Source of the DNA: a virus | Reading direction: 5' to 3' (one strand) | IMG/VR virus record: IMGVR_UViG_3300025310_000024 | Span: 1 to 21,203 of that record | DNA: 21,203 bases | In this document: positions 4,328-21,203 of the stretch, piece after piece | Layout: each line of letters opens with the position of its first letter | How positions within the stretch are numbered: position 1 is the stretch's first letter | Made by a program: the position numbers and the translations under genes | Notes under the pieces: model-generated | What the model was told of the DNA's origin: nothing | Database searches by the model: none | Seen by the model: only the letters and a program-made list of their open reading frames with translations

Positions 4328-5245
4328 TTATGGGTCGTAGCGCACGAGCAGCGACACGCCGGTATTAGTGCCGCCCGGCACTGGCCCGCCCTTGGCGAGC
4401 GAAGTCGTCGTATTCGTCCCGGCGAACCCGAGGCCGAGCGGGTAGTATTCGTGGGTCGTCCCGTAGACGGTGACAAGAAGCGTCACGTTCACTGGCATCG
4501 ACGTCACGATGTAACCGAGCTGGTTGAGGCCGGCCGGCTTGAAGGTGTTGTGGGCGTGATACTGCGGGAACACGCCGACGTTCGCACCGTCGGCCCCGTT
4601 GCCGATGCGCGGCGCCAGTATCCCGAAGTCGGTCTCGACACCGGCGCCACCGATCGTCCCGTTCCAGTATTCCTGGAAGTCGCCCTGGTTTGAGTCATAC
4701 CAGGAGATGTAGGCGCCGCCGGCGATGCGCGCCCCGAGCGAGTTGACCTCGCGCTCGACGCTGACGAAGAACGTATTAGCCACGAGACCGGGAGCGGAGT
4801 TCGGGTTGTAGAACGCCCAGGCGATCGTGAAACGGTCAAGCTCGCCGGAGAAGAGATGGAAATGATTCCCGGTCGCCGATCCGCTCGCCCTGACCTGCCG
4901 CCTCGCGCTCGGCGCGCCAGTCAGGGCTCCGCTGCCGTTGGACCCGCTGCTGACTTGGAGCCAGACGGCGGGGTTCGTCGCCGCGTTGCCGGTGCCGTAT
5001 TCGATCTTGAAGAAAATCGGCGCAGCCGCCTGGTGGGTGTCGGCGAACCGCCAGATCTCGTAGCCAGCCACGGTGTTGGCGGCCACCGGCTTGGTGACCG
5101 TGGTCAGGTTGATCTGGCCGGTGTCGGCGGTCTGCACGAGCCCCATCGCGGCGAGCGCGTCGTGGATAGCCTGCGCAAAGGCGCGGAACTCCGTGTCGTT
5201 GTTAACCAGCGCGGGCAGGTCGTTTCGGACGTTTCGATAGGCCAT
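4328..5245 (-). CDS. Tail tip / adhesion protein, paralogue B
   Basis: At 305 residues it is the partner of the upstream gene, co-linear over its whole length: NDTEFRAFAQAIHDALAAMGL, DTGQINLTTV, ANTVAGYEIWRFAD, the strand IFFKIEYGT, RIGNGADGANVGVFPQYHAH, GLNQLGYIVTSMPVN, and VTVYGTTHEYYPLGLGF. The fixed segments (YEIWRFAD, PQYHA, GLNQ-GY) are probably fold-determining; the diverged ones (around residues 125-175 and the C-terminal 25) may be exposed. The stop is 12 bases before the next gene. Tandem gene duplication with surface divergence suggests adaptation of host recognition, but the function is inferred from position and pattern. Confidence 0.6.
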   Translation of the reverse strand: MAYRNVRNDLPALVNNDTEFRAFAQAIHDALAAMGLVQTADTGQINLTTVTKPVAANTVAGYEIWRFADTHQAAAPIFFKIEYGTGNAATNPAVWLQVSSGSNGSGALTGAPSARRQVRASGSATGNHFHLFSGELDRFTIAWAFYNPNSAPGLVANTFFVSVEREVNSLGARIAGGAYISWYDSNQGDFQEYWNGTIGGAGVETDFGILAPRIGNGADGANVGVFPQYHAHNTFKPAGLNQLGYIVTSMPVNVTLLVTVYGTTHEYYPLGLGFAGTNTTTSLAKGGPVPGGTNTGVSLLVRYDP

Positions 5246-5255
5246 TGGTTGAACC

Positions 5256-6164
5256 TCAGTCCCAGCGGATGGCGAACGACGTGTTCAGCGTGCCGCGCGA
5301 CGCGTTCGCGTTCGCCGTGGTGGTGACGAACGTGCTGCCGAGCGTCCGAAAGGTGTGCGCGGCGCCGTAGACGGTCACCGGGATCTCCGAGTTGACCGCG
5401 ATCGCAGAGACGCTGTATCCCATCTGGTTCAGGCCGAACGGGAGGAATACCCCGTTGGCGTGATACTGCGGGTAGAGGGAGACGTCGGCTCCGCTCGTGC
5501 CGTTGCCGATGCCGGGAGCGTGGATGCCAGGGTCGTCTTCGAGGCCGAGGCCGCCGGCAGCGCGCGAGAAGTATTCCTGCATGATCTCGTCGCCGAGATC
5601 GTCGGTCCCGGAATTCCCGGACACCGTGATGTAGACGCCGGTCCCGACGTCGTTCCCGTTGATGTCCTTCTCGCGCTCGATGCTGAAGAAAATCACGTTG
5701 GCCGCGGCCTGGTTGCCGAGCGAGTCGTAGAACCAGAGCGCGACCGTCAGGCGGTTCGTGTCGCCGGAGAACGCACAGAGGGCGGTGTTGGTGTTGTTAA
5801 GCTCCTGGCCGCACTGGTTGCGGGTTGACTTCGCGCCGATCAGGTTGCCGGCGCCGTCGGTCGCGACACCGACCTGAACCCAGATGGCTGCGCGCGTCGA
5901 CCCGCCGGAGGTCCCGTATTCCAGCTTGATGTAGATCGGGTTGGCCGTCTGGAGCGAGTCGGCGAACCGCCAGATCTCGTAGCCTGCGACAGTGTTTGCT
6001 AGGGTCGGCTTGAGGACGGTCGTCCAGTCGATCTGCCCCGTGTCGAGGGTCCGCACGAGGCCCATGTTGGTCAACTCGGTGCGGATGGTCGATCCCCAGG
6101 TGCGAAACTCCGCGTCAGTCGTAAACCCCATCGGCAGGGTGCTGACGATGTTCTTGTAGGCCAT
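5256..6164 (-). CDS. Tail tip / adhesion protein, paralogue A
   Basis: This 302-residue protein is clearly paralogous to the next gene. Shared segments occur from end to end: DAEFRTWGSTIRTELTNMGL with TDTGQ-type DTGQIDWTTV, ANTVAGYEIWRFAD, the strand IYIKLEYGT, SIEREKD, GIGNGTSGADVSLYPQYHAN and GLNQMGYSVSAIAVN. The N-terminal helix followed by repeated beta strands is typical of tail-tip or fibre-associated proteins. There are no signal or membrane segments. It begins at ATG 6164, directly after the upstream TAA. It is probably part of the receptor-binding apparatus, but no catalytic or sugar-binding motif is visible. Confidence 0.6.
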   Translation of the reverse strand: MAYKNIVSTLPMGFTTDAEFRTWGSTIRTELTNMGLVRTLDTGQIDWTTVLKPTLANTVAGYEIWRFADSLQTANPIYIKLEYGTSGGSTRAAIWVQVGVATDGAGNLIGAKSTRNQCGQELNNTNTALCAFSGDTNRLTVALWFYDSLGNQAAANVIFFSIEREKDINGNDVGTGVYITVSGNSGTDDLGDEIMQEYFSRAAGGLGLEDDPGIHAPGIGNGTSGADVSLYPQYHANGVFLPFGLNQMGYSVSAIAVNSEIPVTVYGAAHTFRTLGSTFVTTTANANASRGTLNTSFAIRWD

Positions 6165-6961: not shown

Positions 6962-9900
6962 TTACCTCGTCGCGATGCCGAGCGCCAACTGCATGCGCGT
7001 GCGACCGCCGCTCTTATTGCCCTCGATCCAGTCGATGAAGATCGGGCCGATCTCGTCGTAGACCATCTGCCGAATGGTGTCGACGGTGGCAATCGGCGTG
7101 GTGAGGTTGAACGTCACACCGCCGCCAGCCCCGGCTTTTGTCCCGAACCCAACCCGCTGCATCGCTTGTGCGAGGGCGGACACGATCGTGTTGGCGTCAC
7201 CGACGATCTCAGGGCTGCGCTCGGCGATCACACGCATGGCGGGTTTCGTATACACGCCACCGCCAGCGGCGCCGTATATCTTCGCGGCGCGGTCCCAATC
7301 GCCAGGGTTGGACCGCATGAACGCCTCAAGCTCTTGCCACTTGTCGCGCTTCGCGGCGATGTAGGCGAGGACCCGGTTGCGGCTTTCGGTCTGCCGGATC
7401 TCGCGGTTCTCGTCGCTCGTATCACCGCGGCGATGTGCCTCTTCGGCCTCGCGGATGCGGTCGGACTCGGAGCGGGAACCACCACCCGACGACCCTCCAC
7501 CGCCGGACGGCGGCGAAGGCGCATTCTCCACGTCGTAGCGAACGGGAATGATGATCGGCTGACCCAGCTCGTCGCGCCCAACTTCGATCACTCGCCAGGT
7601 TTCCTGCGCTTCCGCCTGGATGCGATCGAATCCGGCGACAGAGGCAGCAGTCATGCTTTGTTGCGCGGCCTTCGCCTGATCCATGACCCGGCGGATTTCC
7701 TCGATGACCCGCCGCACGGCGTCGCCGCCCTGCTTCTCCGCGCGCCACAGCCGGTCCGCGATCTCAAGGGCCTCCTCTCCAGACCTGCCCATCGCGATGT
7801 AGGCGTCGCGGATGGCGATGACCGTCGCCGCCCCGGCCTCGTTGCCCTTCCACGCGCCCTGCGCGGCCTCCTGGACTTCTTTCATTTGCTCCGGGCTGAG
7901 CGCGTCAAGGAGCCCCTGCCGAAAGGCGCCGGCAACCTCGCGGCCCTCGCGTTCGGCCTTGTCTGGGCCGCCAAAAAGGTCCTTGAAGAAGCCGCCAACC
8001 TTTCCGAGGGCGTCCTTGACCCAGCCGGCGATCTTCGCGGCGGCCGGGCCGAGCAGCGACCCGAGCGCCGCGCCAACCGGGCCAGCGAACATTCCGATCA
8101 TCGAGGACACGTTCATGCCGAGACCGCTGAGAATTTGCGGAGAGAACTTGTTGAACAGGTCCGTGATGGCCTTTTGTCCGAAGTCCGCACCAAGCCCGGA
8201 CACCATTGCCTGGATGCCGCCGGCCAACCCGCCGCCACCAGTCAGGGCCTTCTGAATGAGACCGGGCAGCCCCGAGAGCGCGTCGCGGAAGAAACCGACG
8301 TAACTCCCGGTTGCGGACTGCATGTGCCCGATCTCGGCGTTGTGGGCTTGGCGCGCAGCGGCCATCTTTTGCGCGGTTTCCTGCTCGATGGCCGCCATCG
8401 CCTCTTTGTAGAAGGCGCCGTATTTATCGAGCTTCGCTTTCTTCTCATCGGCCTCCCGCTGAATCTGGAAGAGCTGGAAGTCGATCGCGGACATCGTCAT
8501 GCGGGCGCGCTCTTCCTCGGCGTTGCGCGTCGCCGACGTCCACGATTCGAGATTCGATTGCATCGCGGCGACGGAACGCTTGTGCGCTTCCTCAGCCTGC
8601 TTGGAGATCTCTTCGGAGATGCGAGCGGCTTCCTTCGCCATCTCCTTGTTGTTCTCAGAGAGCCATTCGGCGATGCGAATCTTCGTGAGACGTTCGAGAC
8701 CTTGACGAATTGCCTCGGGCACCTTCGTGCCCGTGACGCCGAACTTCTCCATCTCGCGACGGGCATCGTCGAGCTTCGTGCCGAACTCCCTCAAGAAGTC
8801 GGCATCGGACAGCGTCTTCAACCCGCGAGCGACGTCGCGGCTCAAGAGCGTGATGTTCTTATTGAAGTTCTTCGCGGCGTTGTCGGCGACGGTGAACGAA
8901 CTGCCAAGTCCATCGACGGGCGGCTTCGCGCCGCGAGCGGCGGTCGCTACTTCCTCAGTTGCCGTTTTGGTCGTGCGGAGATTCGCGGAGGCCGCGCCGA
9001 GCACGGCGTGGATACCGCTCATCGTCTTGCCAAACGCGTCGTTTCCGGCCGCCGCGGCTTCCGCGCCTTTGCGGGCGTTCCAGAACTCGTTCGTCAACGT
9101 CCGCATGAAAGCGACGTTTTCCCGGCCGGCCTGCGCCCACTTGGCGAGCGTCCCGGTCGGGTCCGCTTTCGCGGCGATCTCCAGCACCTTAACGGTGCCT
9201 TCGGCAACCTTCGTGATCGTTTCGAGAATGATGGCCGCGATGCCAATGACACCGGTGCGCAGGAATTGGAAGGTCTGATACGTGCCTTGGACGACCGTCA
9301 CGGCTGTCTGGCCGAACGACAGCAGGCCGGCAGCCAGGGATCGCACCGTCGCCTGCGAGTCGTTGCCGAAGGCGCCAGCGACCGAGGTCTTGAAGGACTC
9401 CATCGCCTTCTGCACACCCTCGGAGCCCATCGCCTCGTTGATCAGGCCGAGGCCATCGCGGACGATCTCGAAAAATGGCTTGAACGTGTCGGCGAGAAGG
9501 ATGCTGACCGTGTCCTTGAAGGTCGACACGACACCCTGCCAGGTGCCGGCCTGCTGCTCCATCGCGCCGTTGAATTTGCCGAGGGAATCCTGAAAGACCT
9601 TAAAGACCTGGCTGGCGCTCGCCCCAGACTTCTGGAGCTTCTCCATCTCGTCGCGCGTGCGCGGCGACAGGACGGCAAGCTCCTGGAGACGCATGGCGGC
9701 CTCTCCGAAGGGCTTCCCGCCCTGGAGCATCGCATACATGCGACCGACCCAGAACCCGAGCTGGTCGATCGGCGCGCCCGTCGCCGCCGATGCGTCACCG
9801 AGCAGGATGATGTTCTGTTTGGTGTTCAGCGCGGCGCCGCCGAACGTTTCCATCATTCGGCTGGCTTCGATGATTGGACCGGTTTCGAACGGAGTCTTTT

Positions 9901-10246
9901 TGGCGATCTCGAACAACTCACGCACGTGCGCGCGGGCCTTGTCCGCATCGCCCATCAACGTGGTGAACTGAAGGGTGGTCGTCTCGAGAGTCGCGTTCAT
10001 CCCGAAGACGGCATCCTTCGCAAACGAAAACGCAGCGCCGACGCCGCGCATGATGGTCTGCGCGGATACAAAGCCGGCGACGGTGCCGGCAGCGGTCGAG
10101 AGAGCATTCCCCAGGAGGCTCGTGCTCTGCGCAGTCCTCTTGGTGTTCCCCTCGATCTCAGAGAGGAACTGGTTGATTTGCTTTTGAGCGTCGCCGAGTA
10201 GCGCCTTTGCGCGTATCTCGAATTCGACGTTGTTGCCGGCGCCCAT
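6962..10246 (-). CDS. Tape measure protein
   Basis: The 1094-residue protein is the largest in the window and has the tape measure profile. Residues 1-50 are a charged helix (RAKALLGDAQKQINQFLSEI). There are hydrophobic stretches at about 48-82 (TAAGTVAGFVSAQTIMRGVG), 325-345 (LRTGVIGIAAIILETIT) and 714-740 (MFAGPVGAALGSLLGPAAAK). Long charged coiled-coil segments lie between them. Residues around 85-230 (TTTLQFTTLMGD, FETGPIIEASRMMETFGG) match the common tape-measure N-domain. A Gly/Ser-rich linker lies near 911-920, and the C-terminal segment is a probable tip-binding domain. At about 0.15 nm per residue this predicts a tail of roughly 150-165 nm. The ATG abuts the chaperone stop (TAGATG). 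The long open frame opposite is a composition artefact. Confidence 0.95.
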   Translation of the reverse strand: MGAGNNVEFEIRAKALLGDAQKQINQFLSEIEGNTKRTAQSTSLLGNALSTAAGTVAGFVSAQTIMRGVGAAFSFAKDAVFGMNATLETTTLQFTTLMGDADKARAHVRELFEIAKKTPFETGPIIEASRMMETFGGAALNTKQNIILLGDASAATGAPIDQLGFWVGRMYAMLQGGKPFGEAAMRLQELAVLSPRTRDEMEKLQKSGASASQVFKVFQDSLGKFNGAMEQQAGTWQGVVSTFKDTVSILLADTFKPFFEIVRDGLGLINEAMGSEGVQKAMESFKTSVAGAFGNDSQATVRSLAAGLLSFGQTAVTVVQGTYQTFQFLRTGVIGIAAIILETITKVAEGTVKVLEIAAKADPTGTLAKWAQAGRENVAFMRTLTNEFWNARKGAEAAAAGNDAFGKTMSGIHAVLGAASANLRTTKTATEEVATAARGAKPPVDGLGSSFTVADNAAKNFNKNITLLSRDVARGLKTLSDADFLREFGTKLDDARREMEKFGVTGTKVPEAIRQGLERLTKIRIAEWLSENNKEMAKEAARISEEISKQAEEAHKRSVAAMQSNLESWTSATRNAEEERARMTMSAIDFQLFQIQREADEKKAKLDKYGAFYKEAMAAIEQETAQKMAAARQAHNAEIGHMQSATGSYVGFFRDALSGLPGLIQKALTGGGGLAGGIQAMVSGLGADFGQKAITDLFNKFSPQILSGLGMNVSSMIGMFAGPVGAALGSLLGPAAAKIAGWVKDALGKVGGFFKDLFGGPDKAEREGREVAGAFRQGLLDALSPEQMKEVQEAAQGAWKGNEAGAATVIAIRDAYIAMGRSGEEALEIADRLWRAEKQGGDAVRRVIEEIRRVMDQAKAAQQSMTAASVAGFDRIQAEAQETWRVIEVGRDELGQPIIIPVRYDVENAPSPPSGGGGSSGGGSRSESDRIREAEEAHRRGDTSDENREIRQTESRNRVLAYIAAKRDKWQELEAFMRSNPGDWDRAAKIYGAAGGGVYTKPAMRVIAERSPEIVGDANTIVSALAQAMQRVGFGTKAGAGGGVTFNLTTPIATVDTIRQMVYDEIGPIFIDWIEGNKSGGRTRMQLALGIATR

Positions 10247-11082
10247 CTACCCTTGCCTCTTCTCCCGCTGCCGCTTCAGCGCCTCTCGCTTCCGCCGCTT
10301 CTCGATGTCCGTCACCAGTTCCTGGTGCAACGTGGCGACGTAATCAAGTCCGTTCATCAACCAGGCGTCTTGTTCGGCCACACCTCCGGCCGCCGGCAGC
10401 GCTACTCGCCGCCAAACGGCCGCGCCTTGTGGTGTGAATTCGAGGTCGTAGCAGTGGACAAACCACCGCATCACGTCCTCAACGTCCCTATCCCTGAGCG
10501 ATAGGACAGGGCAGACCGTCGTCTCTACACGTTCATCTCGCCAGACGGCCTCTCCGTCGAAACTGCCCCCAGGTCGACAGCCTCGGTCGGCGCAAAGGTT
10601 TCGCTCTTTGCACTTCCCGCAATCGGCTCCGGTGTCGGCCCAGGAAGTTCCGGGCGTAGCTCGTCGGAGGTAGTCGCTGAACCGGACAGCGACCGCAACT
10701 TTTTTCGCACCTCCTCACCGAACCGGTTGTGCGACCAGATCTGGTTCATCACGTCGATTTTCACGTCCAGTTGTCCGGCCGCCAGATCGTGGAATGCCTC
10801 ACCGGTTGTCACCGGTGTGCCTTCGTCATCGATCTCGCCTTGAGGCACGCGCACGTATTTCGTGAACGACGCCTGCAGCCACGCGAGCATGTCGTTCTTC
10901 CGCTTTTCGATTTCCTCGGCTGGCGCCTCGAAGCCACCCGGCATCGGCCGGGCGTAGGTGAAGTATTCGGATTCGAATGCGAGAAATTCGCCGAGCGTCT
11001 GTCGCTTCACTTCGATGTTCACCGACTCGCCTTCAAACAGGACAACAGCCGGCAGCCATCGTTTGACCAGGACTTTGGCCAT
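10247..11082 (-). CDS. Tail assembly chaperone, -1 frameshift (gpGT-like) form
   Basis: Slipping back one base at A AAA AAG (10699-10705) leads into a frame that I traced without a stop to TAG 10247, giving a 278-residue fusion: 128 common residues plus 150 unique ones. The unique part starts VAVAVRFSDYLRR, has a cysteine cluster C155, C158, C164, C169 and later C191-P, then a helical domain with RWFVHCYDLEF, GGVAEQDAWLMNGLDYVATL, and a very basic end. The last 76 codons from GTG 10474 could look like a separate gene, but that GTG has no convincing separate role once the shift is recognised. In lambda the shifted form recruits the tube protein to the tape measure. The stop abuts the tape measure ATG. 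Confidence 0.85.
10525..11082 (-). CDS. Tail assembly chaperone, short (unshifted) form
   Basis: The 185-residue product is the equivalent of lambda gpG, which coats the tape measure during tail assembly. Residues 1-128 form the folded part, with strands MAKVLVKRWLPAVVLFEG and VNIEVKRQTLGEFLAFESEY, then helices EEIEKRKNDMLAWLQASFTK and LDVKIDVMNQIWSHNRFGEE. After the slippery site at residues 126-128 the unshifted frame continues into a Ser/Pro/Glu-rich tail of 57 residues that looks disordered. Location immediately before the tape measure gene, plus the frameshift signal, is the family hallmark. Sequence identity between such chaperones is low, so context carries much of the call. Confidence 0.8.
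   Translation of the reverse strand: MAKVLVKRWLPAVVLFEGESVNIEVKRQTLGEFLAFESEYFTYARPMPGGFEAPAEEIEKRKNDMLAWLQASFTKYVRVPQGEIDDEGTPVTTGEAFHDLAAGQLDVKIDVMNQIWSHNRFGEEVRKKLRSLSGSATTSDELRPELPGPTPEPIAGSAKSETFAPTEAVDLGAVSTERPSGEMNV
10673..10705 (-). promoter_or_regulatory. Programmed -1 ribosomal frameshift signal
   Basis: The slippery heptamer A AAA AAG (10705 to 10699) is in the correct register with the upstream gene: AAG is codon 128. A 5-base spacer TTGCG follows, then GTCGCTG (10693-10687), a 7-base loop, and CAGCGAC (10679-10673), a perfect 7-bp stem. Heptamer, spacing and stem are all within the range known for bacterial -1 sites. A AAA AAG is one of the most slippery sequences in bacteria. 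Confidence 0.9.
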
Positions 11083-11228: not shown

Positions 11229-12368
11229 TTACGCGATCGCGAGTATCAACTCGTCGTTCTCGCCGTCCGCCGATTCGAGAGCCATCCCCTCGAACGCCCA
11301 GCGGACTTCGTCCTCGCCATCGCTCGTCTCTGCGGGCTTGAATTCCACCCTCGGAGCGTAGATGGCGACAATGTTGCCCTCCGTGCGACCGTTCTGCCGA
11401 AGCACCACGAGGTTCGCACCGGTCTCGGTCTGGTCGTAGATCGCAGTCTCGTCCTCGGCGAACGCATCGAGCTTGATCTTGACTTCGCGTCGATCCTTGC
11501 GGAACAACTCGGTCGGCCGATCGGTGCCAGCCTCGCTGTGCCGAACCTCCAGGCCGTTGCTGATCTCGGCGACGAAGTTCGTGTGCTTATAGGCGTTGGC
11601 CCCGACGCGAAGATCACCGACCATCCCGGTCGGTGGGTTGCCTCCCACCTCCGTCGCGGCACCCGGAGTCGCCTGGCCAGGGGTGAGCTGTTCCTTCGCT
11701 GGACCGTTGGCGGTGAAGCGCGCCGCCTCGGTGCCGTCGAATTCCAGGTTCAGGGAATCGATGCCGGTGCCGAGCAGTTCCCGCTTGAACGCCGGATAGG
11801 CGTGCAGGATGTCGAGCGAGATCGCCAAGTCGGTCGTCAGCAGATAGGTGATGCAGCCCTTGACCGCGGCGCCATCGGCAGGGGCTGACGGCAGCGCGGG
11901 CGCCCACGTCACGACGTTGCCAACGACCGACGTCAGAAACCGGACGTGCTTGGTGCCGCCAGCCGTGATCAGGACCGCGTCCTTCTTCGCCAAGCCGGCC
12001 GCCGAGGCGAGCGTCGCGCCGTTCACCGTGCCGGTGCCGACGCTGACAGTCGTCGACAGGGTCACGTTGCGGACCGACCCGAACCCGGCCTTGAGAACCG
12101 GCGAGCATTCCGGCAGCGTGTTGAGCGTGCCGGACGGCCGGATCAGCCCTTCGAGGGTCTTGAGCGACGCGTCGCTGCGCCGATCGAAGCGGTTCACCGG
12201 GCCAGGTGACTCCTTGCGCTCGGGCGACGTCACTCGCGCAAACGGGTCCCATCCGAAATTGACATTGATGTGCCGCATGAAATTCGTCGCCGCAAGCACT
12301 TCGGCAACGCCATAGACGGCCTCCTCCTTGAGGAAGACCTTCCCCCTACGTCCGCTCTGAATCGACAT
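11229..12368 (-). CDS. Tail tube protein
   Basis: This 379-residue protein lies directly upstream of the assembly chaperones and tape measure, where siphophage tube genes are found. The N-terminus, GRRGKVFLKEEAVYGV, then TNFMRHINVNFGWDPF, is typical of large tube proteins that begin with a short arm and strand. The rest is beta-rich, including SLNLEFDGTEAARFTANGPA (about 204-223), REVKIKLDAFAEDETAIYDQ and the C-terminal VRWAFEGMALESADGENDEL. Hexameric rings of such proteins stack to make the tube. The large size suggests an extra inserted domain around residues 105-180, GTGTVNGATLASAAGLAKKD, which resembles an Ig-like or RIFT-type insert. The start has GAGGAG 6 bases upstream. The family is inferred, not matched. 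Confidence 0.75.
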   Translation of the reverse strand: MSIQSGRRGKVFLKEEAVYGVAEVLAATNFMRHINVNFGWDPFARVTSPERKESPGPVNRFDRRSDASLKTLEGLIRPSGTLNTLPECSPVLKAGFGSVRNVTLSTTVSVGTGTVNGATLASAAGLAKKDAVLITAGGTKHVRFLTSVVGNVVTWAPALPSAPADGAAVKGCITYLLTTDLAISLDILHAYPAFKRELLGTGIDSLNLEFDGTEAARFTANGPAKEQLTPGQATPGAATEVGGNPPTGMVGDLRVGANAYKHTNFVAEISNGLEVRHSEAGTDRPTELFRKDRREVKIKLDAFAEDETAIYDQTETGANLVVLRQNGRTEGNIVAIYAPRVEFKPAETSDGEDEVRWAFEGMALESADGENDELILAIA

Positions 12369-19958: not shown

Positions 19959-20408
19959 CTAAGCAACCGCCTTCGCCGCCGATTGATGACGCTCAAGATA
20001 TTTCGCGGCTTCACGGAGCCGATCAGGATCATCAGTGGCCATGCCGAGCACCGTATTGCAATTCGAACAAAGCAACTCCCGAAGTTTCCCGGTGCAATGA
20101 TCGTGATCCGGCACAAGTTGCTCCGGCTTCTCACCGCAAATGGCGCACGCTCCATCCTGCGCGGCGACCATCTCCTCATACTTCTCAAGCGTTAGACCAT
20201 ATTTCCGAAGCGTCTGACGGCGGCGCTGCCGCATCACTAGGTCAGGGTTCTTCTCACGCCATGTGCGGGTGTTGGCCTTCAGCCGATCGCGGTTTCCCGT
20301 GTTCCACCGATTCGACTTGTCGAGTCTCTTCCGGCGCTGCTCTGGCGTGAGCTGCGAATACCACCACTTCATGTAACCCGGATCGCTACGCTTCGGACGA
20401 TCGCTCAC
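19959..20408 (-). CDS. HNH endonuclease, recombination endonuclease VII-like
   Basis: This is a 149-residue protein starting at GTG 20408, chosen because its first bases form a GTGA overlap with the terminase stop; an in-frame extension to 20465 would sit inside the terminase gene. The N-terminal half is very basic and helical. The C-terminal half carries CAIC (residues 88-91), DHDHC (101-105) and CSNCN (114-118), the zinc-bound beta-beta-alpha-metal fold of the endonuclease VII/HNH family; H102 and H104 are candidate catalytic or metal residues. HNH proteins next to terminases are known to assist terminase cutting at cos sites in several HK97-like phages, so a packaging role is likely. A free-standing homing-type nuclease is the alternative. 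The family is clear; the role is inferred from position. Confidence 0.85.
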   Translation of the reverse strand: MSDRPKRSDPGYMKWWYSQLTPEQRRKRLDKSNRWNTGNRDRLKANTRTWREKNPDLVMRQRRRQTLRKYGLTLEKYEEMVAAQDGACAICGEKPEQLVPDHDHCTGKLRELLCSNCNTVLGMATDDPDRLREAAKYLERHQSAAKAVA

Positions 20409-21203
20409 GCTGCTCGCACCTCGGTCGCGCGTCCATCTGACCGTGCATCCTCGCCTCCGACGCACCGCACCCGATACTTGACGCTGGACGACCCGCTGAC
20501 TAGGGCTCCTGCCGCTGCATTTATGAGATCGTCATGACCATTTTTCGGATGATCGATCACGTCCTTGCCGCCTCGCCCGGTCTTGCGTTCGAGAGTCTGC
20601 ATCTGCACCACCATGCGCTTGTTGGTCACCAGGTCGACGCGCCGCCCATTCACGAGCGGCAACAGCGTCCGATAAATTTCGTTCTTCGTGCGCTCGCTGA
20701 TCTCGTATTCGACGCCGTGGCTGCGGAACCGCTCCCGCGGCCACTCACCCGCGTAGCGGTCACCCTTGACGCTGTTCACGCGGTAGGTCTTGAGCAGCTC
20801 GCAGAATTCCTTGGTCGTGTCGTCGGGGTTGAACGGCGGCTTTCGTTCCCGCACGCAATCGAGCACCTCGATCGTCATGCCCAGCATCTCGGCCGGCACC
20901 CCGGCCGCGTCGGTCGGGATCGTTTCCGTATGCGCGATGCCAAGGGTCATCGAGTCCTGGCCGCTGCCGCCCGCGGGGTCGACGAACGCGCGATAACTCA
21001 CGCCATCGCGCGGAGGCCGCTCAGCTTCCTCGGACAGCACGTCCGCGATGACCTTCGAATCGAACAGCGCCTGGACGTCGCTCCTGAAGTTCGCGCCATA
21101 CTCAGCATCTGCCGCGGCGTGATCTTCCTCGTAAGCCGCGTCGACGTCCTCCTGTGGGAACGTGGGATTCATGACCCACGTGGGCGCCTTCCAGACGAGC
21201 ACC
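20405..21203 (-). CDS. Terminase large subunit, C-terminal part (5' end outside window)
   Basis: The frame is open to the window edge, so only the last 265 or so residues are visible. They match the C-terminal part of phage large terminases. The segment beginning WKAPTWVMNPTFPQ, with later EYGANFRSDV, is the usual end of the ATPase/linker region. An RNase H-like nuclease follows, with acidic residues in FVDPAGG (visible residue 75), GDRYAGEW (about 148) and GHDDLINAA (224-225), the spacing expected for a two-metal nuclease that cuts concatemeric DNA during packaging. The missing upstream part should hold the Walker ATPase motor. The stop codon overlaps the downstream HNH start (GTGA), indicating translational coupling. 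The GTG at 21202 is an internal valine codon, not a start. Confidence 0.9.
   Translation of the reverse strand, partial: VLVWKAPTWVMNPTFPQEDVDAAYEEDHAAADAEYGANFRSDVQALFDSKVIADVLSEEAERPPRDGVSYRAFVDPAGGSGQDSMTLGIAHTETIPTDAAGVPAEMLGMTIEVLDCVRERKPPFNPDDTTKEFCELLKTYRVNSVKGDRYAGEWPRERFRSHGVEYEISERTKNEIYRTLLPLVNGRRVDLVTNKRMVVQMQTLERKTGRGGKDVIDHPKNGHDDLINAAAGALVSGSSSVKYRVRCVGGEDARSDGRATEVRAA

Follow-up and report, generated by a model that had tools for sequence, protein, structure and literature searches.

The slippery heptamer of the phage lambda gpG/gpGT pair is G_GGA_AAG, which differs from the A_AAA_AAG of the locus described here. In gene layout the two agree: lambda has the order major tail protein, G, T and tape measure, with a -1 shift near the 3′ end of G and a fused T domain that ends beside the tape measure gene (PMC5009743). 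In the lambda fusion, contact with the tape measure is made by the G part and contact with the major tail protein by the T part; long-tailed phages widely conserve this -1 shift arrangement (PMC5009743). A_AAA_AAG itself is the dnaX site, which is highly shift-prone in E. coli (PMC5009743); how far this applies here would depend on the lysine tRNA of the phage host. E. coli dnaX and IS911 resemble our locus in combining A_AAA_AAG with a stem-loop after it and an SD-like element before it, but their genes and purpose are unrelated (PMC5009743, PMC4066793).

We analyzed IMG/VR virus record IMGVR_UViG_3300025310_000024 over 21,203 bases (hereafter, the window). Its minus strand carries a row of tailed-phage structural genes, including Pfam matches to a portal, a prohead protease and an HK97-type major capsid, as well as a head–tail adaptor. 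Two overlapping frames sit between a major tail protein, assigned by position, and the tape measure, as they do in both related loci described below. We read these frames as a probable programmed -1 ribosomal frameshift of the lambda gpG/gpGT type, located in the tail assembly chaperone gene of a long-tailed phage, and put the probability of this reading at about 0.93. The features concerned are:

6962 to 10246, minus strand: tape measure protein, 1,094 aa (phrog_973, E 5.9e-6; tblastn matches to Arthrobacter phage tape measures)
10247 to 10474, minus strand: 75-codon open reading frame listed by a start-codon-based caller, beginning at the first ATG, GTG or TTG of the -1 frame (10474)
10250 to 10699, minus strand: -1 frame extension (T-like domain), 150 codons, open from the slip
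10525 to 11082, minus strand: 0-frame putative chaperone gene (G-like), 185 aa, under purifying selection upstream of the slip
10577 to 10621, minus strand: four-cysteine motif C-x2-C-x5-C-x4-C (C27, C30, C36 and C41 of the -1 frame)
10672 to 10694, minus strand: hairpin with a 7-nt loop, seven Watson–Crick pairs (10693–10673) and a closing G-U pair (10694/10672)
10699 to 10705, minus strand: slippery heptamer A_AAA_AAG, in the register of the G-like gene and invariant in three loci
10710 to 10715, minus strand: SD-like AGGAGG, invariant in both relatives, a candidate 5′ stimulator
11229 to 12368, minus strand: probable major tail protein, 379 aa, by gene order and position

The G-like gene runs from an ATG at 11082 to a stop ending at 10525, and its first 128 codons are common to the fusion. 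At the heptamer the codons are CGA AAA AAG, followed by a 5-nt spacer (TTGCG) and the stem GTCGCTG/CAGCGAC. The -1 frame ends in a stop (10249–10247) that abuts the tape measure ATG at 10246, for a fusion length of 128 + 150 = 278 aa. An earlier note on this DNA had described the A AAA AAG in register, the 5-base spacer and a perfect 7-bp stem, all reproduced here to the base, and we likewise recovered its 278-residue fusion and its 150-codon open -1 frame, which reaches the base before the tape measure ATG. It had missed the upstream SD-like AGGAGG, which falls within codons GAG GAG GTG and is kept in both relatives.

These relatives are two IMG/VR contigs (L001 and L002) that encode the pair in the same gene order; in both, the heptamer occupies the identical codon position and the -1 frame is kept. 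The earlier note had proposed conservation of the heptamer as a check, and had named as contrary evidence relatives without a slippery site and with an independently started T; the heptamer is retained in both contigs and neither shows the contrary pattern. The probable major tail protein, which has no family match in Pfam, PHROGs or NCBIfam, is 84–88% identical to that of both relatives. Profile scans with the -1 frame and the major tail protein across IMG/VR and 84,980 bacterial and archaeal genomes returned the same two contigs alone, and tblastn of G or T against annotated phages gave no match. An exact AGGAGGTGCGAAAAAAG is found in IMG/VR in both relatives and in two more contigs; the latter were rejected as relatives, being unrelated chance sites.

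Among these three sequences, all fairly close (80–90% identical), the DNA hardly varies from GAGGAGG through the end of the hairpin. The heptamer, AGGAGG and hairpin are identical in both relatives while the DNA elsewhere differs, with 5/55 variable sites from the heptamer to 55 nt downstream versus 39/120 across the remaining overlap (Fisher p 0.0007). Covariation was absent from the hairpin among the three sequences because no position in it varies.

We asked whether coincidence could explain the cassette, with an accidental A-run in a gene pair whose long -1 frame is accidental too. Open -1 frames of at least 150 codons begin at 16% of codon positions and are not rare in GC-rich window DNA, and the hairpin is of modest stability, with 13/200 shuffles folding as well. 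Because frame length and hairpin alone are unremarkable, the case rests on conservation and the substitution pattern, and this evidence is strong. Coincidence has to contend with conservation of the heptamer in relatives, with strong codon-level selection in the -1 frame and with the rarity of the heptamer: an in-register A_AAA_AAG occurs a single time in about 6,300 window codons, against 0.09 expected from codon usage in the whole window and 0.003 in the G-like gene. We regard such an accident as scarcely credible. Minority codons of the window include CGA for arginine (26/384) and AAA for lysine (34/270). The only other in-register slippery-type site in the window (Y = A or T) is a G_GGA_AAC at 20298, which leads into just 12 codons in the -1 frame and looks like chance.

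To determine which frame is under selection, we sorted the substitutions between the window and each relative by frame and compared them with the same changes placed at random (3,000 simulations). Upstream of the slip, substitutions follow the 0 frame, with purifying selection, and downstream they follow the -1 frame. Between 10474 and 10699, substitutions at the three -1 codon positions number 8/8/24 and 7/5/19 in the two relatives. Nonsynonymous -1 codons in this region number 10 and 8 versus 25.2 and 20.0 expected, and 0 of 3,000 simulations were as low; this null is without phylogeny and both comparisons share the window sequence, yet they agree with a wide margin. In the overlap (10525–10698), nonsynonymous codons of the 0 frame number 20 and 15 versus 18.2 and 16.8 expected, with no detectable constraint; the 0-frame tail evolves as if unconstrained. 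The -1 frame is constrained over the 16 codons from the 0-frame stop to 10474 as well (P 0.0007 and 0.016), a stretch that would be noncoding if G and T were two separate genes. What the analysis shows is the layout of the cassette, its retention in the relatives and selection on the -1 frame.

The -1 frame opens at 10714 in the window, 9 nt before the heptamer (likewise 9 nt in L002), and from there to 10474 ATG, GTG, TTG, CTG and ATH are all absent. The first possible start in the -1 frame of L002 is an ATA 177 nt past the heptamer. In L001 the opening lies 93 nt before the heptamer, and the stretch between holds an ATT and a CTG. Since the window offers no start in the -1 frame before 10474 and the 75 codons upstream are constrained, the frame would be reached by frameshifting rather than from a gene at 10474, making a shift the parsimonious route to the constrained -1 protein. 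The second frame is a selected protein domain whose first half, in the window, would be reached solely by shifting.

An independent T gene starting at 10474 (GTG) or 10471 (ATG), beside an incidental slippery site, would suit the GAGG found 5 nt before the ATG at 10471 and the ORF that a start-codon-based caller lists from 10474. It would also suit the presence of an ATG or TTG at the same place in the relatives, where the codons at 10474/10471 are GTC-ATG and GTA-TTG (GTG-ATG in the window). Such a gene, however, does not explain the 75 codons upstream of 10474, which are under -1 purifying selection, including the 16 past the 0-frame stop, and hold half a conserved domain and four invariant cysteines. 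The heptamer and hairpin are invariant. We consider it very improbable. An additional internal start at 10474/10471 is possible; it is unneeded and cannot account for the upstream 75 codons. With frameshifting as the preferred reading, the ORF at 10247–10474 is most plausibly the latter half of the shifted domain. Both the claim that the frame from 10474 is the end of a fusion and the prediction that annotation would miss the 75 shifted codons (10474–10699) are supported by the -1 selection upstream and a first ATG, GTG or TTG at 10474.

The frame could also be changed by RNA polymerase rather than the ribosome, through slippage on the A-run. The pivot is a homopolymer run of six A, and Thermus dnaX and some IS elements are among the bacterial genes that use this mechanism, but the efficient bacterial case was described for 9 A or T (PMC5009743). 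The conserved codon register, final G, hairpin 5 nt on and SD-like element are instead those of ribosomal shifting, and polymerase slippage seems to us highly unlikely.

Both elements flanking the heptamer are placed as expected of ribosomal stimulators. GAGG, AGGA and GGAG within GAGGAGG end 4–7 nt before the heptamer, which fits the positional criterion for stimulatory SD-like sequences (PMC4066793), and the stem begins 5 nt past the heptamer, where the usual range is 5–8 nt (PMC4066793). An Rfam search gave no match. A pseudoknot between the loop (TCCGG) and CCGGA at 10653–10649, both invariant, is not claimed, as the region is coding-constrained and the loop has no spare base to bridge the second stem.

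Neither G nor T has a family match in Pfam, PHROGs or NCBIfam, and T has no match by sequence to solved structures. A medium-confidence AlphaFold model of G, with a mean pLDDT of 63 and higher values in the first 130 residues, gave weak Foldseek matches, several of them named tail assembly chaperone (E 0.06 for the best of that name); the model of the T domain was too uncertain (pLDDT 49) and was set aside. Together, position and these weak fold matches point to a chaperone role. The four cysteines of T are invariant in the three sequences, and their motif lies wholly within the shifted segment and entirely upstream of the start a gene caller would pick. Their spacing is suggestive of zinc binding. 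More speculatively, and in our view unlikely, T may be a zinc-binding domain whose cysteines are encoded solely in the shifted segment, such that the shift would add a metal-dependent module recruiting the tail tube; such a module, if real, has no described counterpart among lambda-type chaperones.

The tape measures of the window (6962–10246) and L001 (4829–7444) are mosaic. They have in common about 25 N-terminal residues and the C-terminal 380 residues (60% identity), and the remainder is unrelated, whereas the adjoining chaperone and major tail genes are about 80–88% identical. The N-terminal part of the window tape measure instead matches tape measures of Arthrobacter, Rhizobium and Bacteroides phages. 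Because the tape measures are mosaic while the chaperones are about 80% identical, the common parts may be regarded as candidate chaperone contacts.

Elsewhere in the window, two adjoining ORFs of 305 and 302 aa (4328–6164) look by eye like tandem paralogues, both starting MAY.N and having in common DTGQI...NTVAGYEIWRFAD. The end of a terminase-like ORF (19959–20465) overlaps an ORF at 20405–21202 (CAICGEK...DHDHCTG...LCSNCN) that resembles, by eye, an HNH protein of the recombination endonuclease VII type.

That ribosomes shift here, how often they would do so and that the products act as chaperones are inferences from this evidence, and we suggest how the locus would work. Most ribosomes would read the 185-aa protein through to the stop at 10525, while a minority would pause at the hairpin, perhaps also through pairing of AGGAGG with 16S rRNA. 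Paused ribosomes would slip one base back on A_AAA_AAG, with two lysine tRNAs re-pairing, and read 150 more codons to yield the 278-aa fusion. On the lambda model, the part common to both products would bind the tape measure, and recruitment of the major tail protein would fall to the shifted domain.

Overall, the cassette is real, was correctly interpreted by the earlier note and is ordinary in kind. The general phenomenon is textbook, and the interest lies mainly in annotation: codon-level selection shows that the shifted frame is a real protein, and start-codon-based annotation would lose 75 codons of it, among them a highly conserved stretch of the cassette and the four-cysteine motif. With this locus, a widely conserved mechanism gains a divergent and unannotated chaperone pair. 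The locus is modestly new in that G and T are without matches in Pfam, PHROGs, NCBIfam and annotated phages and that the conserved four-cysteine motif falls entirely within the shifted segment.

Among annotated phages, Burkholderia phage Bcep176, whose major capsid is about 40% identical to that of the window, has A_AAA_AAG in a joined G/GT CDS (gp69/gp69′) with the same gene order and a purine-rich SD-like stretch upstream of the heptamer. This joined CDS is annotated as the lambda T equivalent. In Bcep176, however, 11 codons separate the shift from the 0-frame stop, versus 57 in the window, and T is without the four-cysteine motif; the proteins of the two pairs are not alignable. Arthrobacter phage Cyan, whose tape measure is about 27% identical to part of ours, also has a joined chaperone CDS (gp14/gp15) directly before the tape measure, but its G is shorter and an in-register G_GGA_AAC, rather than A_AAA_AAG, lies just before the 0-frame stop. 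Compared with lambda, the window pair has a hairpin and an SD-like element, and its G and T show no detectable sequence similarity to any family. Defined at the level of genes, the locus belongs to the lambda G/GT type, and it would work in the same way.
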